Virus record (IMG/VR): IMGVR_UViG_3300025276_000151
Coordinates: 1-29,162 of that record
Source: a virus
DNA: 29,162 bases
Strand: one strand, 5' to 3'
Shown in pieces: positions 5,574 through 21,029 of the stretch. A program made the translations under genes and the position numbers. Each line of letters begins with the position of its first letter. The stretch's first letter is position 1. The notes beneath the pieces are model-generated. The model did not search any database. It saw only the letters and a program-made list of their open reading frames with translations, and had not been told where the DNA came from.

Positions 5574-6202
5574 TTACCAATGAAGACAACATGGATTTAA
5601 TGGTTAGGTATAAAGACAATCATTTTGACTTGGCTATTGTTGATCCTCCTTATGGAAGCAATGATGCCATAGGTTTAAAAGATAATCTTTCTAAAAATAA
5701 ACAAGCAACAAAAAGAACTAATTACAATGTTTTTAAAAATGTATCACCATCAATTAAATACTTTAAAGAATTAAAAAGGGTTAGCAAGAATCAAATTATT
5801 TGGGGTGTAAATTTTTATAAAAACTTTGATTTGAGTGGTGGAAGGTTGTGTTGGGATAAAAAAGGGACTGCATTTGGAAGGGCGGAACTTGCTTATTTAT
5901 CTATGACAAAAAGCGTAAATGTTTGTGAAATAATATGGAACGGTATGATTCAGCACGACATGAAAAATAAAGAATTAAGAATACACCCAACACAAAAACC
6001 AGTGAAACTTTATGAATGGCTTTTAATGAATTACGCAAAAGAAGGAGACACAATATTAGACACTCATTTAGGAAGTGGATCAATTGCTATTGCTTGTCAT
6101 AACTTAAAATATGATTTAACTGCTTGTGAACTTGACACAGAATATTATGAAAAAGCGATGGAAAGAATTAATAATCATAAGCGACAAATAAGAATGTTTT
6201 AA
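5570..6202 (+). CDS. DNA methyltransferase, N6-adenine/N4-cytosine type
   Basis: This 210-residue amino-methyltransferase has the catalytic DPPYG motif IV at 25-29, HPTQKP at 139-144 and the AdoMet-binding motif I DTHLGSGS at 164-171. The motif order IV before I places it in the beta class (N6_N4_Mtase family). No target-recognition insert is obvious and no restriction endonuclease is adjacent, so it is an orphan enzyme. It probably protects phage DNA from host restriction or marks it for replication or packaging. It is the last gene before the terminase operon; CGTTATATA begins 4 nt after its stop. Confidence 0.9.
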   Translation: MITNEDNMDLMVRYKDNHFDLAIVDPPYGSNDAIGLKDNLSKNKQATKRTNYNVFKNVSPSIKYFKELKRVSKNQIIWGVNFYKNFDLSGGRLCWDKKGTAFGRAELAYLSMTKSVNVCEIIWNGMIQHDMKNKELRIHPTQKPVKLYEWLLMNYAKEGDTILDTHLGSGSIAIACHNLKYDLTACELDTEYYEKAMERINNHKRQIRMF

Positions 6203-6205
6203 TGA

Positions 6206-6214
6206 CGTTATATA
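6206..6214 (+). promoter_or_regulatory. CGTTATATA motif, copy 1 (terminase operon)
   Basis: Exact CGTTATATA lies 4 nt after the methyltransferase stop and 23 nt before the small terminase ATG at 6238. It is the only one of five copies not placed 3 nt from the ATG; a leader containing AATAAACAAAAATAAATC lies between. It is a proposed late promoter element. Confidence 0.6.
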
Positions 6215-6237
6215 AATTGAATAAACAAAAATAAATC

Positions 6238-6507
6238 ATGGATGGACGAAAACAAAATGGAGGGGTAAGGGAAGGAGCAGGAAGACCAAAGAAAGCTGAT
6301 GAAGAAAAGCTAATCGAAAAACTAGATGCATTAATTGACAGTGACAAGGTGGTAATGAAACTAGGGGAAATGTGTATGAAAGGTGACACAAGAGCATTGA
6401 CATTATACTTCAATTACAGATATGGAAAGCCAAAAGAGAAGATTGATATTTCAGCAAGTGAAGGGTTAAATGTGAATTTTAAGGACTTGATTCAGTTTAG
6501 TGATTAA
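6238..6507 (+). CDS. terS: Small terminase subunit
   Basis: This 89-residue protein begins with NGGVREGAGRPKKADEEKL, the GAGRPKK motif typical of small terminase subunits of Bacteroidetes and Gram-positive phages. A helical region follows (KLGEMCMKGDTRALTLYFNY) that would form the DNA-binding and oligomerising part. It recognises the packaging site and recruits the large subunit. It overlaps the large subunit gene by 8 bases, supporting coupled translation. It is short for the family but not obviously truncated. The ATG follows an A-rich leader downstream of CGTTATATA copy 1. Confidence 0.8.
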   Translation: MDGRKQNGGVREGAGRPKKADEEKLIEKLDALIDSDKVVMKLGEMCMKGDTRALTLYFNYRYGKPKEKIDISASEGLNVNFKDLIQFSD

Positions 6508-7708
6508 GGTAAACCCGAAGTATTCACCAATATCAAAGGCTGATTCTAGGTATTTCATTGTAACAGGTGGAAGGGGTAGTGGTAAATCCTTTTCTATTAA
6601 TTTGATGTTGTGCCTTTTAACCTATGAGAAAGGGCATGTGATCTTGTTTAGTAGGTACACCTTAACATCTGCTTATGTTTCTATCATTCCGGAATTTATA
6701 GAAAAGCTAGAACTGCTAAATATCTTTGATCACTTCCAAATCACAAAGGATGAAATTCAAAATAAAATATCCGGCAGCAAGATTATCTTCAAAGGAATTA
6801 AAACATCATCGGGTGATCAAACTGCAAATCTAAAATCATTGCAAGGGGTTACTACCTTTGTCTTGGATGAGGCTGAAGAACTAACAAGTGAAGACACATT
6901 TGACAAAATAGATTTATCTGTCAGATCACAAAGCCAAACCAACCGGATTATCTTAATATTAAACCCAACGACAAAGGAGCATTGGATTTATCAAAGATTC
7001 TTTCAAGATAAAGGAATGCAAGAAAGTTTGAATACTAGTAAAGATGATGTGACATACATTCATACAACTTACCTTGACAACATTCAAAACCTTTCAAAAA
7101 GTTACCTGTCCCAAATAGATAACATTAAAGTAAGGCGTCCAAACAAATACAAGCATCAAATTCTTGGGGGTTGGTTGGATAAAGCTGAAGGTGTAATATT
7201 TGACAACTGGAAGATAGGTGAATTTAAAAAGGTAGGTGTTTCAGTGTTTGGACAAGACTATGGTTTTGCCTCAGATGAATCTACGTTAATTGAAACGAAC
7301 ATTGACACAACAAATAAAATCATCTATCTAAGGGAATGTTTTTACATCAAACATCTAACCACATCACAGATTGGAGAACTTAACTTAAAACACGCAGGAA
7401 ATGCCTTGATAATAGGGGATAGTGCAGAACCTAGATTAATAAATGAACTAAAATCCAAGGGTAGTAATATTATATCAGCAATTAAGGGACAGGGTTCTAT
7501 TACTTATGGTATATCCTTGATTCAAGATTATGATTTAATTGTATCTGAAGATTCGGTTAATCTAATAAAAGAACTAAATAATTATTGTTGGTTAGAACGT
7601 AAATCAAAAACACCACAAGATAAATTCAATCACCTTCTTGATGGACTTAGGTATGCAGTAACCTATCAACTACAGAACCCAAATAGGGGAACATATATGA
7701 TTAGTTAG
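6500..7708 (+). CDS. terL: Large terminase subunit (ATPase/nuclease)
   Basis: This 402-residue packaging motor, PBSX/Terminase_3 type, has Walker A GGRGSGKS at 23-30, Walker B FVLDEAEE near 118-125 and a coupling-like LILNPTT near 152-158. The RNase H-like nuclease part carries Asp residues in GQDYGFA (about 251), IIGDSAEP (about 306) and LDGLRYA (about 379-385). It cuts concatemeric DNA and drives it into the prohead. The start is GTG at 6500, eight bases before the end of terS; no ATG is available nearby. The C-terminus ends shortly after the last catalytic Asp, as usual. Confidence 0.95.
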   Translation: MIKVNPKYSPISKADSRYFIVTGGRGSGKSFSINLMLCLLTYEKGHVILFSRYTLTSAYVSIIPEFIEKLELLNIFDHFQITKDEIQNKISGSKIIFKGIKTSSGDQTANLKSLQGVTTFVLDEAEELTSEDTFDKIDLSVRSQSQTNRIILILNPTTKEHWIYQRFFQDKGMQESLNTSKDDVTYIHTTYLDNIQNLSKSYLSQIDNIKVRRPNKYKHQILGGWLDKAEGVIFDNWKIGEFKKVGVSVFGQDYGFASDESTLIETNIDTTNKIIYLRECFYIKHLTTSQIGELNLKHAGNALIIGDSAEPRLINELKSKGSNIISAIKGQGSITYGISLIQDYDLIVSEDSVNLIKELNNYCWLERKSKTPQDKFNHLLDGLRYAVTYQLQNPNRGTYMIS

Positions 7709-7715
7709 TGAACTT

Positions 7716-7746
7716 TTTGTTTTATAAGTTTATTTGTGTATCTTGC
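7716..7746 (+). promoter_or_regulatory. Promoter TTTG-N19-TATCTTGC
   Basis: TTTG at 7716-7719 is spaced 19 nt from TATCTTGC at 7739-7746, a near match to the Bacteroidetes TTTG/TAnnTTTG promoter. It lies between terL and the gene at 7782. The following leader holds AAACAAACAAAAA, a 13-mer repeated before the gene at 28761. Confidence 0.55.
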
Positions 7747-7781
7747 ATATAAGATTAACAATTAAACAAACAAAAATAGAT

Positions 7782-8054
7782 ATGAGAATTTCAGATTTAA
7801 TAACCAAGTTAGAAACCTATAAAGAAAAGATGGGTGATATGCATTTAGAATTTACTGTTTCTGATCACTACACTAAAGGTGATTTTAGATGTACAAAAAG
7901 GAAGGGTATGGACTTCATAAAAAGCAATACTCGTAGAGGCAAGGAAATTGCTAAATTCGGTTTTGACTTGTGTCATCAATACGATGATATTACCAATGTA
8001 TGTAAGCAGCCAAAAATTACTTACAGAAAAGGATCAGAAGTTTATAGTGTATAA
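7782..8054 (+). CDS. Accessory protein of unknown function, 90 aa
   Basis: I place the start at ATG 7782 (MRISDLITKLETYKEKMGDM), because the upstream TTG at 7734 lies in the promoter. The protein mixes helical and beta segments (MHLEFTVSDHYTKGDF) and is basic in the middle (FIKSNTRRGKEIAKFGFD). No family is recognised. It has its own promoter and a strong terminator at 8061 and sits between the packaging and tail genes. This is the layout of an autonomously expressed moron-like gene, which might act on the host or competitors rather than in the particle. Confidence 0.7.
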   Translation: MRISDLITKLETYKEKMGDMHLEFTVSDHYTKGDFRCTKRKGMDFIKSNTRRGKEIAKFGFDLCHQYDDITNVCKQPKITYRKGSEVYSV

Positions 8055-8060
8055 TTTAAT

Positions 8061-8085
8061 AGGGGGGTAATTCCCCCTTTTTTTT
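8061..8085 (+). terminator. Intrinsic terminator
   Basis: A GGGGGG run pairs with CCCCC across a TAATT loop and is followed by eight or more T. It ends the single-gene unit at 7782-8054. Confidence 0.9.
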
Positions 8086-8118
8086 AAATTTAATTTTATA
8101 TATTTAACCACAGATAAA

Positions 8119-8457
8119 ATGGAAACAATGAAACCTTTATTTACAGATATAGAACTGAAAGAAATTATTCATGATATAGATATAGCCTATATAGATATGA
8201 TGGATTCAGAAGTGCACAGGCAAGAAGTAAATTGGTTTGTGCATGATCTTGAAATATTTGCTAGTGTGTTGTGTATTCGTGAAACGCTTAGTGAACCGTA
8301 CGAAACGTATGATCATCAAGAACCGGGAACATACAGATATTTTTTTGAAATTGATGATTGTTGTGCTTACTTTAACGATGAGGATTGTATCACAAATCAT
8401 CAACTTGAAAAAATAATAGTCCCAGTTTTAGAAGTTAAGATACACCCACATGGATAA
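8119..8457 (+). CDS. Acidic accessory protein, 112 aa
   Basis: It is strongly acidic with clusters such as DIELKEIIHDIDIAYIDMMD and a Cys pair in EIDDCCAYFNDEDC. No membrane segment or known motif is seen. The low pI and small size recall phage DNA-mimic or inhibitor proteins, but that is speculation from composition. A TTTTATATA stretch 20-odd nt upstream, after the 8061 terminator, may be its promoter; it resembles but does not match CGTTATATA. It overlaps the next gene by 8 bases. Confidence 0.65.
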   Translation: METMKPLFTDIELKEIIHDIDIAYIDMMDSEVHRQEVNWFVHDLEIFASVLCIRETLSEPYETYDHQEPGTYRYFFEIDDCCAYFNDEDCITNHQLEKIIVPVLEVKIHPHG

Positions 8458-8734
8458 AATACAAAATACACACGATGCTGAATATTGGAATAATGCACAC
8501 CTTTGTTCTAGTATTCTTAGGGGATGGCATAAGATCAAACCCAACAATGAAGAAATAACATCAGTAATGACTGCTCTTCAAGAGATGACTTTTTATGTGG
8601 CACGTTTAAAGCACGATGCACAAGCAAAGGATAAGATAGTTGAAGAGTACAAATTAGAAAGGAACAAGTGGTGCATGAGGGCGCAACAGGCAGAGCGTAG
8701 ATTTGACAACGCAGAGAAGTTAATAGATATTTAA
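8450..8734 (+). CDS. Coiled-coil accessory protein, 94 aa
   Basis: An N-terminal region (HDAEYWNNAHLCSSILRGWH) is followed by long helices with many charged residues (LKHDAQAKDKIVEEYKLERN, then MRAQQAERRFDNAEKLI). The last 55 residues look like a continuous coiled coil. No family is recognised. It overlaps the preceding gene and is closed by the terminator at 8760. As the last gene before the tail operon it could be an early/middle gene rather than structural. Confidence 0.65.
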   Translation: MDKIQNTHDAEYWNNAHLCSSILRGWHKIKPNNEEITSVMTALQEMTFYVARLKHDAQAKDKIVEEYKLERNKWCMRAQQAERRFDNAEKLIDI

Positions 8735-8759
8735 AATATTTGTTTAGTTGGTTAGTTAT

Positions 8760-8789
8760 GGGGTAGTCAAAAATGGCTACCCTTTTTTT
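8760..8789 (+). terminator. Intrinsic terminator before the tail operon
   Basis: GGGTAGTC (8761-8768) pairs with GGCTACCC (8775-8782), including one G-T pair, around an A-rich loop and is followed by seven T. An ATG at 8773 lies inside this loop and should not be used as the start of the next gene. The stem resembles that of the terminator at 19791. Confidence 0.9.
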
Positions 8790-8814
8790 GTGTTTAAAAA
8801 TCCCTTCTATTTTG

Positions 8815-8823
8815 CGTTATATA
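8815..8823 (+). promoter_or_regulatory. CGTTATATA motif, copy 2 (tail operon)
   Basis: Exact CGTTATATA ends 3 nt before the ATG at 8827 and lies downstream of a strong terminator, so the tail operon needs a promoter here. AAAAT lies 13 nt upstream of the motif, as in copies 4 and 5. Confidence 0.7.
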
Positions 8824-8826
8824 TTT

Positions 8827-9483
8827 ATGAAAGCAAGTGTAACTGTGCCGAACTTATCGGAAATTACCCTAGAACAATATCAAAGATTCTTGAAAGTTCA
8901 AGAAATTAACAAGGATGATGATTATGTTTTACAGTTAAAAATGATTGAAATATTCTGTAATGTGGATTACAAGGATGCAAGGAACATCAAGTTTTCAGAT
9001 GTTGAAAAAATCATTGAAGTTCTCACAAAAACCTTTGAAGAAAAGCCAAAACTTGTAACTACTTTTAAAATGGATGGGGTTGAATATGGATTTATCCCAA
9101 ATCTAGAAGAAATTTCTTTTGGTGAATACGTTGATTTAGATTCTTTTCTTCCATCAGAACAAGATTTACATAGGGCAATGAATGTTTTATACAGACCCAT
9201 TGTAAATAAAAAATCAGGAAAGTATTCTATTGCGGAATATGATATTGATACAAAGGATATAATGAAGCAAATAAAACTAAATGCAGTTCTTAGTTCTATT
9301 TTTTTTTTTCAAAGTTTAGGCTTGGAATTATTGAAGGTTACGAACAATTATTTGCAGGAGGAACTGGAGAAACAACCACAATTGCAGCAGGATTTGGAAA
9401 AAAATGGGGGTGGTATTCAAGCATCTTTGCACTCGCTCAAGGAAATATTGAACGATTTGAAAGTATCACTTCCCTTGAATTAA
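8827..9483 (+). CDS. Tail assembly chaperone, zero-frame product (gpG-like)
   Basis: This 218-residue zero-frame product probably coats the tape measure protein during tail assembly. The start is ATG 8827, because an upstream ATG at 8773 lies in a terminator loop and the CGTTATATA motif ends at 8823. The protein begins VTVPNLSEITLEQYQRFLKV and is mostly helical, with a conserved-looking EISFGEYVDL segment. It contains an 11-T run at 9299-9309 encoding Phe-Phe-Phe. From there a second frame (-1) is open and protein-like to 9566, as in gpG/gpGT systems. The zero-frame C-terminus is Gln/Leu-rich. It is first in the tail operon, upstream of terminator/completion and tape measure genes, the usual chaperone position. 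Confidence 0.7.
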   Translation: MKASVTVPNLSEITLEQYQRFLKVQEINKDDDYVLQLKMIEIFCNVDYKDARNIKFSDVEKIIEVLTKTFEEKPKLVTTFKMDGVEYGFIPNLEEISFGEYVDLDSFLPSEQDLHRAMNVLYRPIVNKKSGKYSIAEYDIDTKDIMKQIKLNAVLSSIFFFQSLGLELLKVTNNYLQEELEKQPQLQQDLEKNGGGIQASLHSLKEILNDLKVSLPLN

Positions 9484-9566
9484 ATAAGTGTTTAACAATG
9501 TTGACATTTATGAAAGAAAAGAACGAAGCAGAAGCACAACAAATAAAAAATAAACAAAGAAGATGA
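9294..9566 (+). CDS. -1 frame extension of the tail chaperone (gpT-like)
   Basis: The -1 frame opens after TAG 9291-9293 and runs to TGA 9564-9566, overlapping the next ATG in an ATGA. It has no start codon near its beginning, so it must be reached by slippage from the zero frame. It reads as real protein: GFGKKWGWYSSIFALAQGNI, then ERFESITSLELNKCLTMLTF. The WGWY...LAQG pattern is one I associate with tail chaperone C-terminal parts in Bacteroidetes phages. Candidate slip sites are the 11-T run 9299-9309 and A_AAA_AAT at 9399-9405, in phase for a -1 shift. Either gives a fusion of about 246 residues. A homopolymer length error could also explain the split. Confidence 0.7.
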   Translation, partial: FYFFFSKFRLGIIEGYEQLFAGGTGETTTIAAGFGKKWGWYSSIFALAQGNIERFESITSLELNKCLTMLTFMKEKNEAEAQQIKNKQRR

Positions 9567-10042
9567 GCCAAGGAATAAGGGGTTTTTATCAAGTAACCAA
9601 GACACTAGAAGATCAACTGCTTTTAGATGTGAATTGTAAAACCGTTACCACCGGTGATATATCAAAAATTAATCTTGAAAAGCAGGATATTTTCCCCTTG
9701 TCACATATATTAATTAACAGTGTGACACAAAGTGATGACAATGGAAGTGGTTTATACACCTTTAATATTAGCATCCTTTCAATGGATATTGTTGATCAAA
9801 GCAAAGAACCAACCACAGATTTATTCAGAGGCAATGACAACACACAAGATATTCTAAATACACAAATGTCTGTAAGCAACAAGCTAATTCAACTAATGCG
9901 TGGGGGGACTTTATTCCAAGATATGTATCAAGTGCAAGGTGATGCTACATTTGAATTTTTTACAGAACGCTTTGAAAATGAATTAGCAGGTGTTACCGCT
10001 ACTTTTAATATTATTATCTATAATGACATTTTTATTTGCTGA
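9563..10042 (+). CDS. Tail terminator-like / tail completion protein
   Basis: This 159-residue protein begins GIRGFYQVTKTLEDQLLLD and continues VTTGDISKINLEKQDIFPLS, a pattern I associate with a conserved protein between the chaperone and HK97 gp10-like genes of Bacteroidetes siphoviruses. It is alpha/beta with a late beta sheet (ATFEFFTERFENELAGVTAT), compatible with a tail terminator fold. The role, capping the tail tube and joining it to the head, is inferred from size, position and resemblance, not from a diagnostic motif. Its ATG overlaps the stop of the -1 frame extension. Confidence 0.5.
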   Translation: MSQGIRGFYQVTKTLEDQLLLDVNCKTVTTGDISKINLEKQDIFPLSHILINSVTQSDDNGSGLYTFNISILSMDIVDQSKEPTTDLFRGNDNTQDILNTQMSVSNKLIQLMRGGTLFQDMYQVQGDATFEFFTERFENELAGVTATFNIIIYNDIFIC

Positions 10043-10572
10043 TGAATTACGCAGAACTTAATAAGGCTTTAAATGCATTTGGCAAATACGTTATTCAACA
10101 ATCAAGATCAAACTTGACAAAACAAGGTAAAAATTCTACAAGTGATTTGTATAATTCTTTGAAATACGAATTGACAGAAGAAAGCGCAAACTTTTTACTT
10201 GAATTTTTACAAGAAGATTATGGTGATTTTGTAGATCAAGGTGTAAGGGGTGCAGGTAGTAGTTCAAATAATAGAACATCACCTTTTAAGTTTGGAAGTG
10301 GGACTGGCAAAAAAGGAGGATTGACAAAAGGAATCAGTAAATGGATTAAACAAAAACCCATTAAACAATGGAAGGATAAAAAGACAGGTAAATTTCTTTC
10401 ATACAAATCAATGACATTTTTAATTGCCCGAAGTATTTACAACAAAGGAACTAAACCAAGTTTGTTTTTTACCAAACCATTCTATCAAGCATTCAGAAGA
10501 TTGCCGTTAGAAATAGTAAAGGCATTTAAATTAGACATTGAAAAGGCAATAGTGTTAGGCACAAAGAAATAA
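10042..10572 (+). CDS. HK97 gp10-like neck/tail-completion protein
   Basis: This 176-residue protein starts at ATG 10042, which shares its A with the preceding TGA; a TTG six bases upstream is less likely. The N-terminal helix (NYAELNKALNAFGKYVIQQS) followed by TSDLYNSLKYEL and YGDFVDQGVRGAGS is the pattern of HK97 gp10-like proteins (YG.FVD.G....). A basic middle (KGISKWIKQKPIKQWKDKKT) precedes SLFFTKPFYQAFRRLP. It probably joins head and tail. The placement next to the terminator-like gene supports this. Confidence 0.65.
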   Translation: MNYAELNKALNAFGKYVIQQSRSNLTKQGKNSTSDLYNSLKYELTEESANFLLEFLQEDYGDFVDQGVRGAGSSSNNRTSPFKFGSGTGKKGGLTKGISKWIKQKPIKQWKDKKTGKFLSYKSMTFLIARSIYNKGTKPSLFFTKPFYQAFRRLPLEIVKAFKLDIEKAIVLGTKK

Positions 10573-10574
10573 TT

Positions 10575-11567
10575 ATGGCAAATATATTAGTAGGCTCTCC
10601 AAGATTCGAAAGTACCACAATGGGTACTGGCAAAAATAGTGTAGCCTTAGAACTTTATGTGGGGGGTGTTTTAAAATATACTATTATAAAAAATGCCACC
10701 CAAGCAACAGTAGTCACTTTTGAAATTGGAGAATTAGTAAAAGATTATATTATTCAAACATTTAATGGTAGTTATACCGCAGCAAGTGTATCTACGGCAG
10801 GCAGTCAGTTCAAACAATATACAGGTCAAAACGGAACAGGTAATGCTCAAGTATTTTCTATAACAGACAATGTTGGGGTTGATGGTTATGGAACTTTCAT
10901 GGAAGGTGTAAATCCAACTTTAAGCACTTATGAATGGTTAATTCAAAAAGATGTAATTAAAAATGGATATTATTTTTATGCGCCTTTGGGGGTTTCCGGT
11001 GTCGTCCCAGTTTCAACAAATAATGTTTTATCTTATACAGGTTTTAACACTACTAATCCACAAACCATTTCTTTATCTACCCCATCCGGCCCGGTATTGG
11101 TAAACATTATTAGGGTTGATTGTACAAAATTCGGAAACGGAAACAAGATTACATTTTTAAATAAATTTGGAGTATTACAAGATTTGTGGTTTTTTCTTAA
11201 AAGCGTTAAATCAACTACTTCAACAAAAGAAACTTACAGTTCAAACACAATAAGCACAAGTAGCGGATCAGCTACCTATTCAGTAAACGCACCAACAAAA
11301 CAAGTATTTAATAAATCAGCAAATCAAAGGATTGTTTTAAGTAGCGGATATTATCCCGAAGGTGCTAATCCATTTTTTGAACAGTTATTATTAAGCAAAT
11401 CGGTATGGTTAACACAACCCGATCCATACGATCCATCAACTGAACAAGTAGTACCTGTTATTATTAATACAAGTTCATTCACATATAAAACTAGCTTAAA
11501 CGATAGGCTAATAAATTATGTCATGGAATTTGACATGGCATTTGACTATATAAATAATGTTAGATAA
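10575..11567 (+). CDS. Tail-tip structural protein
   Basis: This 330-residue beta-rich protein begins NILVGSPRFESTTMGTGKNS, then ALELYVGGVLKYTI. The segment VDCTKFGNGNKITFLNKFGV, then LQDLWFF, matches a pattern I associate with a conserved tail protein of Bacteroidetes siphoviruses, probably the distal tail or upper baseplate. It starts three bases after the gp10-like gene and overlaps the large protein that follows (stop and ATG share a base). No enzymatic motif is seen. The tail-tip role is inferred from order (chaperone, terminator, gp10, this gene, large tip protein, tape measure). Confidence 0.5.
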   Translation: MANILVGSPRFESTTMGTGKNSVALELYVGGVLKYTIIKNATQATVVTFEIGELVKDYIIQTFNGSYTAASVSTAGSQFKQYTGQNGTGNAQVFSITDNVGVDGYGTFMEGVNPTLSTYEWLIQKDVIKNGYYFYAPLGVSGVVPVSTNNVLSYTGFNTTNPQTISLSTPSGPVLVNIIRVDCTKFGNGNKITFLNKFGVLQDLWFFLKSVKSTTSTKETYSSNTISTSSGSATYSVNAPTKQVFNKSANQRIVLSSGYYPEGANPFFEQLLLSKSVWLTQPDPYDPSTEQVVPVIINTSSFTYKTSLNDRLINYVMEFDMAFDYINNVR

Positions 11568-13714: not shown

Positions 13715-13857
13715 TAAAGATGATTTTAAAAATGCTAGAAATAGCAGATGGACAAACCGAGAACATAAGAATTGCACAAGGTAAATATCTATATCCAAAA
13801 ACATTTAAAGGTGCTTGGAAAGGTTTTAAAAATGAAATGAAATGGCAGAAGAAGTAA
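13711..13857 (+). CDS. Small basic protein, 48 aa
   Basis: The ATG at 13711 overlaps the preceding TGA (ATGA) and TAA 13855-13857 lies inside the tape measure gene. The tail YLYPKTFKGAWKGFKNEMKW is basic and aromatic and looks conserved-protein-like. The N-terminus is hydrophobic and Met-rich (MIKMILKMLEIADG). It may be a small tail-tip or tape-measure accessory. No family name is known to me. Confidence 0.6.
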   Translation: MIKMILKMLEIADGQTENIRIAQGKYLYPKTFKGAWKGFKNEMKWQKK

Positions 13858-15653
13858 GCGTAGAATTAAACGTAGAAACCAAAAAAGCGGAAAAAAACGT
13901 TGATGATTTAACTGGTGGAATTAAGAATTTAACCAAAGCAGTTGAAGATGGAAACGAACAAACCGCAGCCGGTTTAAAAAGCATTGAAGAAACTTCCAAA
14001 TCAACAGGGGAAGGGATTAAAGGTATTGGTAGTTCAATAAAAGCTGCCGGATTAGGATTGTTTTTAATTGCTTTAGAAAGCATGAAAGAATTGTTCATGC
14101 AAAATCAAGTGGTAGCCGATGCAGTAGGTGGTGCTTTTGAGGGATTAGCTTTGGTTTTCAATGATGTGTTTGGATTGTTGACAAATGGACAGGAGAGTGT
14201 TCAAAAATTGGGGGATGCCTTCGATAAATATTTTGGCGAACCTATAAAAACTGCTACACAAGCCTTTGAAAAATTCGGTGATGCATTCAGCAAGATATTC
14301 GGTGGTGATTTTAGTGGTGCGTTAGAATCTGCTCAAGAAGGGTTTAGTGGTTTAGGTGATGCAATATTACAAACAGGTGATGGTCTTGCAGAGGCTGCCA
14401 CAGATGCAGCAGAATATGCGGTTGATATAAAAGATGCAGCAGTTGCAAATGTTCAACTTGCAAAAGATGCACAAAAAGCGGAAGTAATAAATGCCGGTTT
14501 ACTTGAAAAGTACGACAGACAAGCAGAACAACAAAGGCAGATAAGGGATGAAGAAAGAAATTCAATCACAGATAGAATTGCAGCAAATGTAGAACTAGGA
14601 AGAATATTAGAAGAGCAGAATAAAAAAATGCTTGAAAATGCTAAGACAGTAGAAAAGGCAGCCCAAGTTGCATTTAATAGAAATAAAAGTTTAGAAAATG
14701 AAACCGCATTAATCGCTGCAAAGAATGAAGTGATGGCAGTAGAAGCCACTATTGAAGGCTTTAGATCAGAGAAACTAGCCAATGATTTAGCACTTGATAG
14801 GGAAAGAGTAGAACTAATAAATACTGAAGCAGAATCTGTATCTAATTTAGGTTTTGAAAGAAGAAAATTTGATGCAGAGCAAGAAACAAATGCAATAAAA
14901 AGAATTGAAAAACTAAAAGAAATAAACGAAGAAGAAAAACTAGTTGAGGCGGAAAGATTACAAGCAATAGTAGATGAGGCTAATACAGGAACACAAGCAA
15001 AAGTTGATGCACAAATTGCCTTAGATGAATTTATGCAAACCAGTAGGCAAGAATCTGTTACTTTAGAAAAAGAATATACAGAAGAATTAGCTGCTGAATT
15101 ACAAAAAAGAAAAGATGATGAATTAGCAGCCTTTGTTCAAAAAAAAGAAATAGAAATGGCAAAACTTGGTGTTTTGCAAAATGGGTTGGGTGTACTTAAA
15201 GGAGTAACTGAAGGTAATTTAAAACTTCAAAAAGGAATAATTGTAGCGGATGCAGCAGCAAGTATTGGACAGGTTATAATGAGTACTCAAATAGCAAACG
15301 CAAAAGCATCTGCAGCATCTCCACTTACTTTTGGAATGCCTTGGGTGGCAATTAATACAGCAAATGCAGCAATAGGAATTGCGGCAACAATCGCATCATC
15401 CAAAAAAGCATTATCTGCAATAGGTAAAGGTGGATCAATAGCATCTGAAGTTTCACCTAGTAGAATAGGAGGAAGCGGATCAGCAACAATGGAATCACAA
15501 GCACCCGAATTTAATATAGTAGGTACAAGTGGAGCAAATCAAATTGCAGATGTAGTTTCATCCCAAGCACCTATAAAAGCGTTTGTGGTTGCTAATGATG
15601 TTACAACGGCACAAGCATTAGATAGGAATATTGTAGAATCCGCAACACTGTAA
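13842..15653 (+). CDS. Tape measure protein
   Basis: This 603-residue protein sets tail length. It starts AEEVSVELNVETKKAEKNVD, typical of tape measure N-termini. A hydrophobic segment follows near 68-80 (AAGLGLFLIALES), then repeated short AFEKFGDAF-type segments. A long charged coiled coil runs from about 220-440 (EKYDRQAEQQRQIRDEERNS and others). A hydrophobic Ala-rich C-terminal part follows (IIVADAAASIGQVIMSTQIA, then WVAINTANAAIGIAATIASS), likely the membrane-interacting segment. At about 0.15 nm per residue the tail would be about 90 nm (inference). It is the last gene of the tail operon; no terminator is seen before copy 3 of CGTTATATA. Confidence 0.85.
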   Translation: MAEEVSVELNVETKKAEKNVDDLTGGIKNLTKAVEDGNEQTAAGLKSIEETSKSTGEGIKGIGSSIKAAGLGLFLIALESMKELFMQNQVVADAVGGAFEGLALVFNDVFGLLTNGQESVQKLGDAFDKYFGEPIKTATQAFEKFGDAFSKIFGGDFSGALESAQEGFSGLGDAILQTGDGLAEAATDAAEYAVDIKDAAVANVQLAKDAQKAEVINAGLLEKYDRQAEQQRQIRDEERNSITDRIAANVELGRILEEQNKKMLENAKTVEKAAQVAFNRNKSLENETALIAAKNEVMAVEATIEGFRSEKLANDLALDRERVELINTEAESVSNLGFERRKFDAEQETNAIKRIEKLKEINEEEKLVEAERLQAIVDEANTGTQAKVDAQIALDEFMQTSRQESVTLEKEYTEELAAELQKRKDDELAAFVQKKEIEMAKLGVLQNGLGVLKGVTEGNLKLQKGIIVADAAASIGQVIMSTQIANAKASAASPLTFGMPWVAINTANAAIGIAATIASSKKALSAIGKGGSIASEVSPSRIGGSGSATMESQAPEFNIVGTSGANQIADVVSSQAPIKAFVVANDVTTAQALDRNIVESATL

Positions 15654-15675
15654 ACACAAAAACAAAATTTAAAAA

Positions 15676-15684
15676 CGTTATATA
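15676..15684 (+). promoter_or_regulatory. CGTTATATA motif, copy 3 (protease/head operon)
   Basis: Exact CGTTATATA ends 3 nt before the ATG at 15688 in the 34-nt gap after the tape measure gene. Five A lie 13 nt upstream of the motif where copies 2, 4 and 5 have AAAAT. Confidence 0.7.
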
Positions 15685-15687
15685 GTT

Positions 15688-16596
15688 ATGAAAATAGTCG
15701 AATTATTTTTAGATGATAATGAAGAAAGCGGAATTGAAGCAATTAGTATAGTAGAATCACCTGCAATTGAAAGTGATTTTATTGCTTTAAAATCTGATGA
15801 AGTAAAACTTGCAGAAGTTGACAAAGAAAAAAAGATATTAATGGGTGCTTTGTTAATTCCAAATAAGCCGATTTACCGAAAAACAGAAGGTGAAGAGTAC
15901 TATATTTATTTTTCAAAAGAAACTGTTTTAAAAGCCTCACAAAGGTACTTGATGAATGGCTATCAAGGCAATTCAACACTAGAACATTCTGATAATTTAG
16001 AAGGGTTGACATTGGTTGAAAGTTGGATAGTAGAAGATGAAGTTCAAGATAAATCAAGGAAGTATGGATTGAATGCCCCAGTGGGGACTTGGATGGGAAC
16101 GATCAAAGTAAACAATGATGATGTTTGGAATGATTATGTAAAAACCGGAAAAGTAAAAGGATTTAGTATAGAAGGCTTTTTTGCCGATAAAATAGAAGCA
16201 CAAAAAATGAGTAAAGAAGAAAAAGAAGCAGAATTATTGCTTAGTAAAATCACAAGCATTGTCAAAGGTGAAAGGGTTGATTTAGGATTAAAAGAAGATA
16301 TTCAAAAATTAATTGATGATGCCGAAGGAATAAGAAAAGACGCTGAAAATATATCAGATATAGCATCAAAAGGATTAAAAATATCAAATTCTACAATTCA
16401 AAATATTAAATCTTTAAATACTAAAATAGATAAAAAATTAAATGAAGTAGAAAAATCAGCAAAAGAATTAGGAGTTGATCCTAAGAATATCTTGGGTTAT
16501 AGTAAATTAAGTAAAAACACTAAACAGATAATTAAAAATTATACTTCTTATATTGAAAAAGCAGATAAAAGTTTTAAAAGTTTAAAAATGAATTAA
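15688..16596 (+). CDS. Prohead serine protease, XkdF-like, with coiled-coil tail
   Basis: This 302-residue protein combines a protease with a scaffold-like tail. Residues 1-172 resemble XkdF-type prohead proteases: MGALLIPNKPIYR (52-64), the His of NSTLEHSDN (His100), ESWIVED (111-117) and the Ser of VKGFSIEGFF (Ser160). His100 and Ser160 fit the catalytic pair of herpesvirus/HK97-type head proteases. Residues 175-302 are Lys/Glu/Ile-rich coiled coil ending with KELGVDPKNILGY (from about 259), a motif repeated in the next gene. It would cleave scaffold and capsid N-termini during head maturation; the tail could place it inside the prohead. Confidence 0.75.
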   Translation: MKIVELFLDDNEESGIEAISIVESPAIESDFIALKSDEVKLAEVDKEKKILMGALLIPNKPIYRKTEGEEYYIYFSKETVLKASQRYLMNGYQGNSTLEHSDNLEGLTLVESWIVEDEVQDKSRKYGLNAPVGTWMGTIKVNNDDVWNDYVKTGKVKGFSIEGFFADKIEAQKMSKEEKEAELLLSKITSIVKGERVDLGLKEDIQKLIDDAEGIRKDAENISDIASKGLKISNSTIQNIKSLNTKIDKKLNEVEKSAKELGVDPKNILGYSKLSKNTKQIIKNYTSYIEKADKSFKSLKMN

Positions 16597-16625
16597 AGAA
16601 TAAGTTAAAATAAAACACAAAAACA

Positions 16626-17060
16626 ATGAACATACAAAACAATTTACAAAACATACTAGACAAATTTCCTAAAAATAAAGTTGAATTAGCAAATCATAGG
16701 GTTGAATTAACCATTATAACGGATATTCAAAAATATTTAAAAAGTGCTGAAGGTTATTTTGATGAGGCTATGAATTCTGAAGAGGAACTTTCAGGATACA
16801 CTTCAGAAATAGAAAATACAAAAGATTTATTAAAAAGATCAATAGATGTTGCAAAAAGTGAAGTTGAATATTTAAAAACAGGAATAAAGGGTGATGTAGA
16901 CGATATAAAAAACAGAGCATCAAAAGCAGCAGGAGAATTAGGCATTGATATTAAAGATATTAAAGGCATGAAAGAATTAGAAGGATTACTTCAAGAAGGA
17001 AAACTAGCTGCCAAAAGTTTAGAAAATGAAATAAAATTCGCATCAAAATTAGCTAAGTAA
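16626..17060 (+). CDS. Helical scaffold-like protein, 144 aa
   Basis: It is almost wholly helical and charged, with GELGIDIKDIKGMKELEGLL from residue 103 matching KELGVDPKNILGYSKL in the C-terminal tail of the upstream protease. The shared motif and the downstream helix in both proteins suggest a common ancestor domain, probably an internal head or scaffold element. No Cys and no membrane segment are seen. The ATG follows an A-rich leader (AAAACACAAAAACA), and the next gene begins directly after its stop with GTG. Confidence 0.55.
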   Translation: MNIQNNLQNILDKFPKNKVELANHRVELTIITDIQKYLKSAEGYFDEAMNSEEELSGYTSEIENTKDLLKRSIDVAKSEVEYLKTGIKGDVDDIKNRASKAAGELGIDIKDIKGMKELEGLLQEGKLAAKSLENEIKFASKLAK

Positions 17061-17282
17061 GTGCAAGGCATAAATCGTGATAGCGTAATACCTAGTAGAT
17101 CATCACCTAAATCAAATACTCGTGCTTGTTTGTGTGCAGATAAAGCGACATACTCAAGGGATTGTTGCGAAGGTGCTATGATGAATCAAGGCATTGGAAA
17201 CGTTACAGGTAATTATGTGAACCTAGCACAAGAAGATGATAATTTAATTCTTCAAGAAGACTATTCAACAATTTACACATAA
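17061..17282 (+). CDS. Small Cys-rich conserved protein, 73 aa
   Basis: It starts with GTG at 17061 immediately after the previous stop. The core ACLCADKATYSRDCCEGAMM, then NQGIG (about 22-46), with C-x-C and CC, is a signature I associate with small proteins of Bacteroidetes phages (the usual form has TYS..CCDGS..AQGIG). It lies in the head gene block and could be a minor virion protein stabilised by disulphides or metal. It ends sharing a base with the next ATG. Confidence 0.65.
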   Translation: MQGINRDSVIPSRSSPKSNTRACLCADKATYSRDCCEGAMMNQGIGNVTGNYVNLAQEDDNLILQEDYSTIYT

Positions 17283-17737
17283 TGGGAAATTTAAAAATAA
17301 GTGAATTACCAAATGCAACCGCATTAACAAATGGCGAATTATTGGTAGTTGTTCAAAGCAGCAACACAAAACAATCAACGATTGGATCAATTAGTAATTA
17401 CATAAATTCCATTTCATTGACTGTAGCAGCAGGGCAAACAGTTAACTTGTCAGACGCTGCTTATTCTAGTTTAAGTCTCTTAAAATTGACGTATACGGCA
17501 GCAGGTGGTGCTGAGAACATGACTATGAACCTACCCGATGCAACAACAAACGCAAACAGGTTAATTAGGTTTATTTCTGACACAACATTTACCACAAATA
17601 CAAGGGTTAATTTAACTGCTATTAATTCACAGACAATTGATGGTTCAACAGATGCCTATATAATCAACAAAGAATATGAAGGTGTTCAGTTGTGGAGTGA
17701 CGGAATAGAATGGTTCATAATTCAAAAGAAAAGTTAA
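17282..17737 (+). CDS. Virion surface/decoration-like protein, 151 aa
   Basis: It begins LKISELPNATALTNGELLVV, a motif often found at the N-terminus of phage fibre and decoration proteins, where it attaches the protein to the virion. The rest is beta-rich, with Thr/Asn-rich strands and a closing strand VQLWSDGIEWFIIQKK. The closing WFII strand resembles that of the protein at 18373-18792 (EWYIIGGVGIWA). It lies between head genes, so head fibre or head decoration is my best guess. It is last in the protease operon. Confidence 0.55.
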   Translation: MGNLKISELPNATALTNGELLVVVQSSNTKQSTIGSISNYINSISLTVAAGQTVNLSDAAYSSLSLLKLTYTAAGGAENMTMNLPDATTNANRLIRFISDTTFTTNTRVNLTAINSQTIDGSTDAYIINKEYEGVQLWSDGIEWFIIQKKS

Positions 17738-17761
17738 AAATGCAAAATTAATTTCAATAAA

Positions 17762-17770
17762 CGTTATATA
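17762..17770 (+). promoter_or_regulatory. CGTTATATA motif, copy 4 (scaffold/capsid operon)
   Basis: Exact CGTTATATA ends 3 nt before the ATG at 17774 in the 36-nt gap after the decoration-like gene. AAAAT at 17744-17748 lies 13 nt upstream of the motif. Confidence 0.7.
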
Positions 17771-17773
17771 AAT

Positions 17774-18376
17774 ATGAAATCGAATGATATAGTGAATCAA
17801 ATCAAAACACTTCTAAACATCGAAGTAAAACTTGAGGCGATGAAATTAGAAAATGGGACTGTTGTAGAAGCAGAATCATTTGAAAGCGGTAAAGAAATTT
17901 TCATTGTTACAGATGATGAAAGGGTTGCTTTGCCAGTTGGTGAATATATGCTTGAGGATTCAAGGCTTTTGGTTGTAGAAGAAGAAGGAATGATTTCCGA
18001 TGTAAGGGAAGTTAGTGATGAAGTTCCGGAAAAAGAAGAAGAGACTGAAGAAGAGACTGAAGATATGGCTGATGAAGGTAACTATGTTACCAAAGATTCA
18101 TTTAAAGAAATGGAGGCTAAAATTCAAAATCTTGAAGATGCAATTGCAGATTTAAAATCTGACAAAGTAGAAGCATCTGATGATTCAAGTACTTTAAAAT
18201 CCAGAACAGTAAAGGAAGAATTTAGTGCTGAAAAACTTTCATCTGAACCGGCTGCTGAAGCAATCAAACATAACCCGGAAGGGGAGACATTAAAAGAAAT
18301 GAAATTTGTTTATTCTCCAAACAGAATAGAAAGTTCATTAGATAGAATTTTAAACAAAATAAATAACATAAAATGA
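17774..18376 (+). CDS. Capsid scaffold-like protein, 200 aa
   Basis: An N-terminal beta region contains TVVEAESFESGKEIFIVTDD, then VALPVGEYMLEDSRLLVVEE, a pattern I associate with a protein just upstream of the capsid gene in Bacteroidetes phages. A very acidic stretch follows (EKEEETEEETEDMADEG, near 97-113), then a coiled coil (DSFKEMEAKIQNLEDAIADL) and a C-terminal region ending in a basic helix (SSLDRILNKINNIK). The acidic linker, coiled coil and basic end fit a scaffolding protein that binds the capsid protein and is removed by the protease. It is first gene under CGTTATATA copy 4. Confidence 0.6.
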   Translation: MKSNDIVNQIKTLLNIEVKLEAMKLENGTVVEAESFESGKEIFIVTDDERVALPVGEYMLEDSRLLVVEEEGMISDVREVSDEVPEKEEETEEETEDMADEGNYVTKDSFKEMEAKIQNLEDAIADLKSDKVEASDDSSTLKSRTVKEEFSAEKLSSEPAAEAIKHNPEGETLKEMKFVYSPNRIESSLDRILNKINNIK

Positions 18377-18792
18377 GTACAACAAGTAACACATCAAATG
18401 ACATTGTATACGTACAAGCATCACAAGAAATTGTAACCGGATCAGCAGCTATTCCTGCAGGATCAGCAGGTGTTGATCAAAACGTAGCAACAGATGCCCT
18501 AATAACCACTCTGCCAAAGATTGAAGCAGGTGATTTGGGTTTAACATACCTATTTAGAAACACAGGTGCAGATGGAAACAACACAATTACATTGTCTCCA
18601 AATGCAGCCGATGCAATTCATGGAACTATTGCCAATGCTGCTGCTGATTCAGTCGCCGGTGGTGTAGTAGATAAAGATTTTATAAACACAAAAGCAACTG
18701 CAAACAAAGGTGATTATGTGGTTTTAAGGGCAGTAGCCTTAACTGAATGGTACATCATCGGTGGTGTAGGTATTTGGGCATCTGAAGCATAA
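18373..18792 (+). CDS. Head decoration-like protein, 139 aa
   Basis: The protein is Ala/Gly/Thr-rich, beta-rich and Cys-free (SGVDQ-type loops, then NNTITLSPNAADAIHGTIAN), ending EWYIIGGVGIWASEA. It lies directly before the major capsid gene with a 4-base ATGA overlap to the scaffold-like gene, the common place for a decoration protein. Its final strand resembles that of the protein at 17282-17737, so the two may be related. No specific family is recognised. Confidence 0.5.
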   Translation: MSTTSNTSNDIVYVQASQEIVTGSAAIPAGSAGVDQNVATDALITTLPKIEAGDLGLTYLFRNTGADGNNTITLSPNAADAIHGTIANAAADSVAGGVVDKDFINTKATANKGDYVVLRAVALTEWYIIGGVGIWASEA

Positions 18793-18817
18793 TTAAAAAT
18801 TTAAAAATATAAAAAAA

Positions 18818-19771
18818 ATGAATTTAAAAAACATACAATTAGGTACAACTACCAATATTACTACTAGTTATGCAGGTGAATTTGCAGGTGAATATATCGC
18901 TGCTGCTTTGCTTTCAGCAAGTACGATCAATGATGGTGGTGTAACCGTTAAGCCAAATATTTCTTTTAAAGAAGTAATCAAAAAATTAGACACAGGTTCA
19001 TTGGTTCAAGATGCCACTTGTGATTTTAATCCTAATTCTTCAGTTACGTTAACTGAAGTGATTTTGCAACCGGATGAATTTCAAGTAAATCTTCAGCTTT
19101 GTAAGCAGGATTTTGTAAGTGATTGGGAAAGTCAATCTATGGGATATGGAATGGCACAAACACTTCCCCCCAAGTTTTCAGATTTTATGATTGCTCATGT
19201 TGCTGCTGAAGTTGCACAAAAGACTGAAACCACAATGTTTCAAGGATTCGCTGCAAACGTTGGTGAATTTAACGGATATGAAACACTTCTAGCAGGTGAT
19301 GATACAGTTGTAGATGTTGCTGCCGTTGGTGGTGGTGTTGATGCTGCAAACGTAATTGCTCAATTATCTAGGGTAGTGGATTCCATTCCTGCCGCACTTT
19401 ACGGAAAAGAAGATTTATTTCTTTATGTACCTTCTAGCATTGCAAAGTTTTACGTCCAAGCATTGGGTGGATTTGCAGCAGCAGGTTTAGGTGCAAATGG
19501 TGTGAACAACATGGGAACACAATGGTGGAATAACGGAAGTTTGACTGTTAACGGAGTAAAGATTTTTGTTTCTCCGGGACTTTCTAATAATAAAATGATT
19601 GCAGCGACAAGAAGCAACTTGTTTTTTGGAACTGGTTTATTAAATAATTTACAAGAATTACGCATAATTGACATGTCCGAAATTGACGGAAGCCAAAATT
19701 GCAGATTTGTAATGCGTTATACCGCAGGTGTAGCCGTGGGAATTGGTTCTGACGTTGTTTTTTATTCATAA
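18818..19771 (+). CDS. Major capsid protein
   Basis: This 317-residue protein lies between the decoration-like gene and a strong terminator, the layout of the most expressed head gene. It contains EVILQPDEFQVNLQLCKQDF, then VSDWESQSMGYGM, and later LFLYVPSSIAKFYVQALG and SLTVNGVKIFVSPGL, which resemble capsid proteins of Bacteroidetes phages with an HK97-type fold. The C-terminus ends as a beta strand (AVGIGSDVVFYS). The leader is very A-rich (AAATATAAAAAAA) with no Shine-Dalgarno. The HK97 fold is inferred from family resemblance and context. Confidence 0.8.
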   Translation: MNLKNIQLGTTTNITTSYAGEFAGEYIAAALLSASTINDGGVTVKPNISFKEVIKKLDTGSLVQDATCDFNPNSSVTLTEVILQPDEFQVNLQLCKQDFVSDWESQSMGYGMAQTLPPKFSDFMIAHVAAEVAQKTETTMFQGFAANVGEFNGYETLLAGDDTVVDVAAVGGGVDAANVIAQLSRVVDSIPAALYGKEDLFLYVPSSIAKFYVQALGGFAAAGLGANGVNNMGTQWWNNGSLTVNGVKIFVSPGLSNNKMIAATRSNLFFGTGLLNNLQELRIIDMSEIDGSQNCRFVMRYTAGVAVGIGSDVVFYS

Positions 19772-19790
19772 TAAATTTTAACCATAAACA

Positions 19791-19826
19791 AGGGGTAGGT
19801 GGGAATGTCTATCTACCCCTTTTTTA
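19791..19826 (+). terminator. Intrinsic terminator after the capsid gene
   Basis: AGGGGTAG pairs with CTACCCCT across about 12 nt and a T tract follows. It lies between the capsid gene and the tail tube gene, where no new promoter is apparent. It may therefore act partially and set the capsid/tail-tube ratio. The stem resembles the terminator at 8760. Confidence 0.9.
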
Positions 19827-19842
19827 TTAAAACAAAAAAAAT

Positions 19843-20382
19843 ATGGCTTGTAACGTAACCGCAGGAAGAGTACTTCCATGCAAAGCAGGATTCGGAGGAA
19901 TCAAGGCTGCTTACTTTTTTGACTTAGATGCACTTGGTGTATTGACATATACAGATGGGGTAATTAGTGCAATAGCAGGTACTCCGACAGTTTATGAATT
20001 TGATGTTAAAAACACATCATCACTAGAAACTGCTATAAATAGTTCTAGGGAAACCGGAACTACATTTTATGAACAAACGCTTAGTTTAACTTTAACTTAT
20101 CTAGATGCACCAACACAAGAGCAGATCAAATTGATTGCTTGGGGGCGTCCTAGTGTCTCGGTTGAAGATTATTATGGTAATATGTTCATTGCAGGATTGG
20201 AAAATGGAATGGAAATGACAGGGGGAACAATAGGCACAGGCACACAACCTTCCGATTTGAGCGGATTCACTATGACATTAGTAGGGCAAGAAGTTGATCC
20301 TGCTACATTCATTACACCAACATTGATAACTGGAGCAACACAAGGAACAAAAATTGATCCTACTGCTGCGGTATCACCTTAA
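19843..20382 (+). CDS. Major tail (tube) protein
   Basis: This 179-residue protein begins ACNVTAGRVLPCKAGFGGIK, then AAYFFDLDAL, the Cys-containing N-terminal pattern of major tail proteins in Bacteroidetes siphoviruses. The middle contains beta strands with ETGTTFYEQTLSLTLTYLDA, then TQEQIKLIAWGRPSVSVEDY, and a late GFTMTLVGQEVDPATF, typical of a tube protein hairpin. It would polymerise into the tail tube. It stands between two terminators; no promoter is seen between 19826 and 19843, so expression likely depends on read-through from the capsid gene. Confidence 0.75.
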   Translation: MACNVTAGRVLPCKAGFGGIKAAYFFDLDALGVLTYTDGVISAIAGTPTVYEFDVKNTSSLETAINSSRETGTTFYEQTLSLTLTYLDAPTQEQIKLIAWGRPSVSVEDYYGNMFIAGLENGMEMTGGTIGTGTQPSDLSGFTMTLVGQEVDPATFITPTLITGATQGTKIDPTAAVSP

Positions 20383-20401
20383 TTAATTATTCTCTTCTAG
20401 T

Positions 20402-20434
20402 AAAAGCATCTCTTTGGGGGGGTGCTTTTTTTTT
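20402..20434 (+). terminator. Intrinsic terminator after the tail tube gene
   Basis: AAAAGCA (20402-20408) pairs with TGCTTTT (20423-20429) around a loop with a run of seven G, followed by more T. It ends the capsid/tail-tube unit. Confidence 0.8.
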
Positions 20435-20461
20435 GTCTTATTTTCACATTTTTTAACTTTC
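20432..20461 (+). promoter_or_regulatory. Candidate promoter TTTG-N18-TAACTTTC
   Basis: TTTG 20432-20435 is spaced 18 nt from TAACTTTC 20454-20461, one base from TAnnTTTG. It starts in the terminator T tract and lies 13 nt before the ATG at 20475. It is a plausible host-type promoter for the micro-gene. Confidence 0.4.
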
Positions 20462-20474
20462 AAATCTTACATAG

Positions 20475-20636
20475 ATGCAAGAAATACACAATCAAATTCA
20501 ATCGTTAGAATCACAATTAACCGGTAATATGTTTAGTGACATGGAAATAAAAGATAAAATACATAATTTAAAAATGAAAGTAAGTGGTTCTAAACCGTGT
20601 TCATCGGAAATTGATTGTATTGGGTGTGGTTCTTAA
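20475..20636 (+). CDS. Small protein with CIGCGS C-terminus, 53 aa
   Basis: The ATG at 20475 opens a 53-codon frame ending TAA 20634-20636, between a terminator and CGTTATATA copy 5. The first 35 residues are helical (MQEIHNQIQSLESQLTGNMF, then MEIKDKIHNLKMK). The end is PCSSEIDCIGCGS, a Cys signature I associate with small proteins of many marine and Bacteroidetes phages. The three Cys may bind metal. The function is unknown. Separate flanking signals suggest independent transcription from the portal operon. Confidence 0.65.
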   Translation: MQEIHNQIQSLESQLTGNMFSDMEIKDKIHNLKMKVSGSKPCSSEIDCIGCGS

Positions 20637-20657
20637 AACAAAATCTATCTTTTTTTG

Positions 20658-20666
20658 CGTTATATA
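20658..20666 (+). promoter_or_regulatory. CGTTATATA motif, copy 5 (portal operon)
   Basis: Exact CGTTATATA ends 3 nt before the ATG at 20670. AAAAT at 20640-20644 lies 13 nt upstream of the motif, the same spacing as copies 2 and 4. Like copy 2 it is preceded by TTTTG. Confidence 0.7.
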
Positions 20667-20669
20667 TGT

Positions 20670-21029
20670 ATGATTGTACTAACAACATCAGCAATTGCAC
20701 AAACATTTAAGGTAATACCAAGGGATTATTCTTTAACCGCATTTACAATGAGTATAAGAGACGATAGCACAAATGTGACTGTGACATATAATATTACTGG
20801 TGCAAGTGTGTCGGGTAATTATGTTACTTATCAGAATATATTTTCACCCATTTTAGTTGAAAATCATTTTTATGATATGACGCTTTATGTAGGAACAAAC
20901 ATAATTTTTAAGGATCGAATATTTTGCACTGATCAAACGATTAATCAAGTTAATAATGATTATTACAAATTAAATAAAGGGCAGTTTACAACGGATGATT
21001 CTTTTAATAATGAATACATAGTAACATGA
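20670..21029 (+). CDS. Conserved structural-region protein, 119 aa
   Basis: I choose ATG 20670 (MIVLTTSAIAQTFKVIPRDY) over an in-frame TTG at 20655, which would translate the CGTTATATA motif. The protein is beta-rich with a C-terminal KDRIFCTDQTINQVNNDYYK, a pattern I associate with a small protein placed beside portal genes in Bacteroidetes phages. The first dozen residues look weakly hydrophobic but not like a clear signal peptide. It overlaps the portal gene by 4 bases (ATGA). It may be a neck or tail component; the exact role is unknown. Confidence 0.6.
   Translation: MIVLTTSAIAQTFKVIPRDYSLTAFTMSIRDDSTNVTVTYNITGASVSGNYVTYQNIFSPILVENHFYDMTLYVGTNIIFKDRIFCTDQTINQVNNDYYKLNKGQFTTDDSFNNEYIVT

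Follow-up and report, generated by a model that had tools for sequence, protein, structure and literature searches.

A putative late-promoter element before the structural operons of a phage related to Nonlabens phage P12024S, and a candidate phage sigma factor as its reader

Described late promoters and the element in the window

Phages that encode a sigma factor serving dedicated late promoters are already known, examples being phiEco32 (gp36) and phage 7-11 (gp47). The late promoters of phage T4 (TATAAATA), which are served by the sigma factor gp55, carry an AT-rich -10-like block at all late operons, lack a -35 block and require a sliding-clamp coactivator. According to a published account (PMC8948821), gp36 of phiEco32 recognizes a 9-nt AT-rich middle/late element, tAATGTAtA, with transcription starting 6-8 bp downstream, and SaPh711_gp47 of Salmonella phage 7-11 serves bipartite late promoters (GTAAtg-16-aCTA) with starts 6-9 bp from the element. 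The present analysis concerns a viral DNA of 29,162 nt (IMG/VR record IMGVR_UViG_3300025276_000151, positions 1 to 29,162; the window), in which the 9-mer CGTTATATA precedes five structural operons. Sequence comparison and a predicted fold indicate that these five sites are very probably the late promoters of the phage, which host RNA polymerase would read together with a phage sigma factor of the extracytoplasmic function (ECF) type, encoded by the open reading frame (ORF) 1987-2466.

All five exact copies of CGTTATATA (Table 1) lie on the plus strand, with no further copy there, as the sequence-only reading had stated, and none on the minus strand. That reading had also estimated fewer than one copy per strand by chance, and dinucleotide-preserving shuffles agreed, giving 0.27 copies for both strands together, a maximum of two, and five or more in 0/100 shuffles. 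When one mismatch was allowed, only two further sites appeared, both on the minus strand. Every copy is intergenic, 3' of the stop codon of the preceding gene. Four of them take the form CGTTATATA-NN-T-ATG, with the ATG exactly 3 nt past the 9-mer, and at the copy at 6206 the ATG of the terS-like gene lies 23 nt past it. A pattern with a 7-nt gap before the ATG had no match in the window because the true gap is 3 nt. A weight matrix built from other phages only (columns -22 to +11, ATG excluded) scored the five sites at 20-31 bits and the next-best plus-strand site at 3.0 bits, so that no sixth plus-strand site appears to have been missed. On the minus strand, at 2631-2639, CGTTAAATA scored 17.9 bits by the same matrix. 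This site at 2639 is antisense within ORF 2463-2951 and is probably a coincidence, possibly an antisense promoter.

The 9-mer had been described as unlike the host box TAnnTTTG; it does not match that box, and none of the five sites carries a plus-strand TAnnTTTG. The accompanying proposal that the box marks early and lysis genes was not borne out, since exact matches number 19 on the plus and 31 on the minus strand, without coding-strand enrichment, and the 8-mer alone therefore says little here. A generic sigma-70 promoter scan of the window was uninformative (76 against 72.7 expected, and 44 against 58.6).

The 9-mer appears to form the -10 half of a two-part element, CAAAA(T)-N13/14-CGTTATATA, and the spacing from the C to the ATG is usually 12 nt. 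Across 46 dereplicated copies, drawn from the window and related phages, positions -19 to -14 relative to the C of CGTT carry a CAAAA[T] block. Of 168 dereplicated CGTTA...ATG sites with an ORF of 80 aa or more behind them, 125 have CAAA at one of two offsets, beginning at -19 (89 sites) or at -18 (36 sites); shuffled sequence gives 2 and 2. Within the window, the sites at 15676, 17762 and 20658 have a clear block, that at 6206 has one displaced by 2 bases, and that at 8815 has a degenerate version (TAAAAAT). Of the 177 operon-first starts that bear CGTTA, 121 have a C-to-ATG distance of 12 nt; in several relatives the scaffold site lies 15-16 nt and the pre-portal site 13-14 nt from the ATG, which makes the lock between promoter and ATG strong yet not absolute.

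The predicted system resembles that of phage 7-11 in combining a phage-made sigma factor that has region 4, the host core polymerase, and two-part promoters that precede late genes in several parts of the genome. The promoters themselves differ (GTAAtg-16-aCTA against CAAAA(T)-N13/14-CGTTATATA), as do the phages, an enterobacterial podophage and a small Flavobacteriia-type phage, and the available part of the account of 7-11 describes no near-fixed distance between promoter and ATG (PMC8948821). With phiEco32 the window shares a phage sigma factor and a 9-nt AT-rich promoter element; however, the phiEco32 element is single, without a -35 block, and gp36 lacks homology to region 4, whereas the window has a -35-like block and a predicted region 4. 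The element is neither tAATGTAtA nor GTAAtg-16-aCTA and thus stands outside the phiEco32-like promoter family, and it is also distinct from the primary-sigma promoters of Bacteroidota (-7 TAnnTTTG). It likewise falls outside the T4-type late promoters: an AT-rich -10-like block at late operons and a phage sigma factor are common to both, but the window element differs from TATAAATA, has a -35-like block, and is paired with a candidate sigma of ECF type. Neither the motif nor a late sigma factor of Bacteroidota phages is reported in the literature searched, and no late promoter or late sigma factor is described there for phages of Flavobacteriia; most subscription papers were outside its scope. 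As far as these searches reach, the promoter sequence, the sigma assignment for the family and the near-fixed distance from promoter to start codon appear to be new.

Conservation of the element in related phages

Relatives were collected via TerL (80 loci) and the portal protein (80 loci), with a few contigs common to both sets. The 9-mer occurs there on the two strands in ratios of 85:6 (TerL loci) and 104:0 (portal loci), or 189:6 over both partly overlapping sets. Before orthologous genes whose proteins are only about 45-50% identical, it is often unchanged while the flanks differ. After dereplication, CGTTA was present within 45 nt upstream at 177 of 228 starts of the five operon-first genes (terS 7/22, tail 20/31, protease 50/58, scaffold 43/59, pre-portal 57/58), against 5 of 477 starts belonging to 23 other genes, among them capsid, portal and every early gene tested; the corresponding Fisher P of 2e-111 takes no account of relatedness and is not to be taken at face value. 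By this comparison, a common putative promoter element stands before late operons only, as in phage-sigma late regulons. Absence of the motif before the same operons in related phages had been named beforehand as a refutation, and the motif is conserved there; the comparative evidence thus supports the earlier proposal of a phage-specific late promoter that unites packaging, head and tail genes in one regulon.

Searches with the pattern alone gave a similar picture. The pattern CAAAA-N13..15-CGTTATATA-NNTATG, applied without protein information to 2.9 million viral contigs, matched at least 120 stretches, of which 80 were analysed. Each of the 80 codes for relatives of window proteins; of their 94 sites, 90 are followed by an ORF of 80 aa or more, and 77 lie at the beginning of a protease, pre-portal, scaffold or tail gene. 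On the other hand, 257 billion bases of bacterial and archaeal genomes yielded only 28 scattered matches in unrelated phyla, 22 of which lead into ORFs below 80 aa and none of which is accompanied by relatives of window proteins. The contrast between the viral matches and these chance-like ones indicates that the element is proper to the phage family, with no visible host regulon.

The family consists mostly of marine phages, and its two cultured relatives, the Nonlabens (Persicivirga) phages P12024S and P12024L, infect a Flavobacteriia-type bacterium; by analogy with P12024S, the host of the window phage may also be of Flavobacteriia type. These phages have a homologous terminase and portal (TerL 58% and portal 39% identity between P12024S and the window), a protein with sigma-70 region 2, and CAAA-N14/15-CGTTAATATA-NN-ATG before structural genes. 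Before the P12024S genes at 3031, 5412, 23961, 25201 and 26802, CAAA is followed by CGTTA, with the ATG 12 nt after the C; the sites at 179 and, before the terminase genes, at 21280 read CGTTACTATAGT-ATG and CGTTAATTAAT-ATG, respectively. The typical -10 block, CGTTAATATA, is one base longer than that of the window, and the C-to-ATG distance is the same. The sigma protein of P12024S, gp33, adjoins the terminase genes and is only remotely similar to that of the window (profile E 1e-8). Its record names it a "hypothetical protein" with a note of Sigma-70 region 2, and Sigma70_r2 scored above the Pfam cut-off here; no description of P12024S promoters was found.

Some clades alter the -10 block at several operons together. 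A CGATATATA-like block occurs in L040 at tail, protease and scaffold, a CGTTATACTA block in L123, L131, L136 and L138, and a TTATATA-type block in L048, L065 and L072, and in L130 CGTTA is followed by CATA, ATTA or CTTA. Similarity between operons within genomes was 6.69/12, compared with 5.91 +- 0.17 after shuffling (maximum 6.54 in 2000).

The candidate sigma factor and competing explanations

The 159-aa product of ORF 1987-2466 is the candidate reader. Thirteen of the 23 members of its alignment match Sigma70_r2 (best E 3.7e-5), and sequence support for Sigma70_r4_2 is marginal (2/23 members, E 0.089). A PDB profile search with the 23-member alignment returned only four matches, all sigma factors and three of them ECF SigE (E 0.085-0.36). 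In the AlphaFold model (predicted local distance difference test, pLDDT, 83; predicted template modelling score, pTM, 0.47), the four C-terminal helices reach a pLDDT of about 90, and the top whole-length Foldseek matches in the PDB are all ECF sigma factors (SigL, SigE, SigH, RpoE and E. coli sigmaE; probability 1.00); the model also matches phage proteins named Sigma70-ECF. Alignment and fold thus point to the region 2 domain expected of ECF (group 4) sigma factors, and the model suggests region 4 after a linker, without regions 1.1 or 3, in a protein close to the usual size of about 160-200 aa. Every TerL locus with 5.6 kb or more of upstream sequence covered carries the sigma gene (27 of 27). 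The gene lies in an early-type region, and CGTTA precedes it in 0/10 cases. Searches of the PDB with the window sequence alone and of named phages by tblastn gave no match, the latter because P12024S gp33 is too divergent; the alignment profile did find gp33. The alignment found no relatives in bacterial genomes, which gives no link to a prophage or host.

In the proposed mechanism, the sigma factor would presumably be made early, from host-type promoters, and would redirect host RNA polymerase to the late promoters by binding the five sites through contacts of region 4 with the CAAAA block and of region 2 with the CGTTA block.

Several observations weigh against this assignment. The ORF 1987-2466 protein alone matches Sigma70_r2 below the Pfam cut-off (E 0.027), and its identification as a sigma factor rests on alignment and predicted fold with low TM-scores (0.35-0.44), which reflect two domains of uncertain relative placement. 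The coordinated changes of the -10 block involve only about five independently varying clades and therefore support rather than prove a shared trans-acting reader. Furthermore, the most distant group (L069, L071, L073, L076 and L078) has the sigma factor without a clear CGTTA element, and in L004-L016 no copy stands at the usual terS position and CGTTATATA occurs within the 3'-terminal part of a coding sequence. These extra copies, as at L004:8243 and L012:6647, lie in the 3' end of the DnaA-C-like ORF a short way ahead of the following gene and lack a good CAAAA block; they are either a coding coincidence or a moved promoter. In the most distant relatives the sigma factor has about 20-26% identity, and single sites such as ACATTATATAAA-ATG at the tail gene of L070 and L071 hint at a diverged promoter.

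Other explanations of the sites were considered. The window is AT-rich (G+C about 33%), and TTATATA alone occurs seven times on its plus and five times on its minus strand, as might suit a chance or low-complexity repeat; that idea is refuted by the shuffle count and the comparative data, namely the excess of 9-mer copies, the strand bias and the conservation before genes with diverged proteins, and its probability is close to nil. The near-fixed short distance to the ATG would agree with a role in translation initiation, in which the 9-mer, as part of the mRNA, would assist ribosomes in hosts that initiate without Shine-Dalgarno sequences. However, the motif is missing before internal operon genes (capsid 0/37, portal 0/26, tape measure 0/28) and stands 32-41 nt from the ATG at terS, on which grounds a ribosomal role was rejected as very improbable. 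Moreover, a ribosome signal would not need the upstream block at -19/-18, and the 9-mer always follows a stop codon, twice just past a terminator-like hairpin.

Alternatively, a different DNA-binding protein of the phage might use the sites as operators or for activation, with a host sigma factor carrying out transcription. One example is the DnaA-C-like protein, for which a DnaA-like DNA-binding match was obtained and of which 40 of the 80 TerL loci encode relatives. Nevertheless, the sites resemble a core promoter in having two parts, a strict orientation and a fixed spacing from the gene, they lack the TAnnTTTG box and every covered relative has the sigma factor, so that an operator role is unlikely. 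ECF sigma factors are common in Bacteroidota, and a host alternative sigma factor could in principle read the promoters, but the few chance-like matches in bacterial and archaeal DNA led to rejection of a host regulon; the phages carry their own ECF sigma and the motif variants track phage clades, which makes a host reader extremely improbable. As for a phage RNA polymerase, no such gene was seen among that part of the window ORFs which was scanned. Late promoters read with the phage sigma factor are therefore preferred over these alternatives.

Predicted transcription starts, operon content and implications

With phage 7-11, the nearest case to have been studied, starting transcription about 6-9 nt past its element and the ATG here 12 nt after the C of CGTTA, transcription would be expected to start at or beside the ATG. 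If CGTT(A) is the -10 core, the start would fall within about 3 nt of the ATG, giving leaderless or near-leaderless mRNAs at four of the five operons; if the whole 9-mer were the element, the start would fall past the A of the ATG, which is incompatible with these genes. Transcription thus most likely starts within 0-3 nt of the ATG at four of the five operons, while the terminase operon would keep a leader of roughly 25 nt. That the whole late regulon of this widespread family runs from an ECF-sigma promoter locked to the start codon, with the capsid, tail and portal operons expressed from leaderless mRNAs, is on balance favoured, if only slightly. Leaderlessness as such is not new, as phage transcripts have been remarked to be often leaderless (PMC5312081). 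Such late mRNAs would nonetheless be unusual for the host group, since 87% of predicted leaders in F. johnsoniae exceed 10 nt (PMC6847099).

Family scans support the gene blocks that had been assigned to the five sites. The terminase, protease and portal blocks were identified through direct PHROG names, whereas gene order contributed to the naming of the tail and scaffold/capsid blocks, whose PHROGs have no known function. The hairpins ahead of the second and fifth promoters fit separate late transcription units.

Table 1. Coordinates of the predicted late promoters, the candidate reader and associated features in the window.
Feature	Position	Strand	Remarks
Predicted late promoter 1, terminase operon	6185..6214	+	CAAAT at 6185 (-21), CGTTATATA 6206-6214, ATG 6238; 20.5 bits
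Predicted late promoter 2, tail operon	8795..8823	+	weak TAAAAAT block, CGTTATATA 8815-8823, ATG 8827; 24.5 bits
Predicted late promoter 3, protease/head operon	15657..15684	+	CAAAAA block, CGTTATATA 15676-15684, ATG 15688; 30.8 bits
Predicted late promoter 4, scaffold/capsid operon	17743..17770	+	CAAAAT block, CGTTATATA 17762-17770, ATG 17774; 24.9 bits
Predicted late promoter 5, portal operon	20639..20666	+	CAAAAT block, CGTTATATA 20658-20666, ATG 20670; 29.6 bits
Candidate reader, ECF-type sigma factor, 159 aa	1987..2466	+	region 2 and region 4 domains, by predicted fold and alignment
DnaA-C-like protein gene	5048-5419		DnaA-like DNA-binding match
terS-like gene	6238..6507	+	first of terminase operon
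terL	6500-7708		after terS-like gene
First tail-operon gene	8827..9483	+	phrog_32199, function unknown; tail label by gene order
Head maturation protease-like gene	15688..16596	+	first of its operon; family scan
Scaffold-like gene	17774..18376	+	ahead of capsid candidate; C-terminal half of phrog_24921
Capsid candidate	18818-19771		downstream of scaffold-like gene
Small pre-portal gene	20670..21029	+	
Portal gene	21026-23206		after small pre-portal gene
Terminator-like hairpin	8760..8783	+	10 bp and T-run; just 5' of predicted late promoter 2
Terminator-like hairpin	20402..20429	+	12 bp and T-run; 5' of predicted late promoter 5

The protease-like protein matches the N-terminal part of phrog_24921 and the scaffold-like protein its C-terminal part, which suggests that a protease-scaffold fusion of other phages is split in the window phage. 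Two strong terminator-like hairpins (19790-19821 and 20402-20429) flank a gene at 19843-20382 that has no late promoter of its own; CGTTA precedes 1 of 93 of its orthologs. Between the first promoter and the terS ATG, an imperfect palindrome, TTGAATAAACAA (class TTGAWTAAWCAA), occupies 6217-6228 as the single copy in the window. Of 70 relatives, 48 have a palindrome of this class no more than 60 nt from the start of terS. Such palindromes are rare elsewhere, with 8 copies, and are present also in clades with a different -10 block; the window copy is possibly an operator or leader hairpin for terminase control.

The analysis provides a testable pair of candidate sigma gene and promoter set in a family with many marine-virome relatives and a cultured relative, P12024S. 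The element would allow late operons to be called from sequence alone in uncultured phage contigs, and the small sigma/promoter pair could serve Bacteroidota genetics. Clade-wise changes of promoter and sigma factor offer natural material for studies of their co-evolution. Leaderless late mRNAs are predicted in hosts without Shine-Dalgarno initiation; if this is true, late phage mRNAs may use an initiation route unlike that of most host mRNAs.

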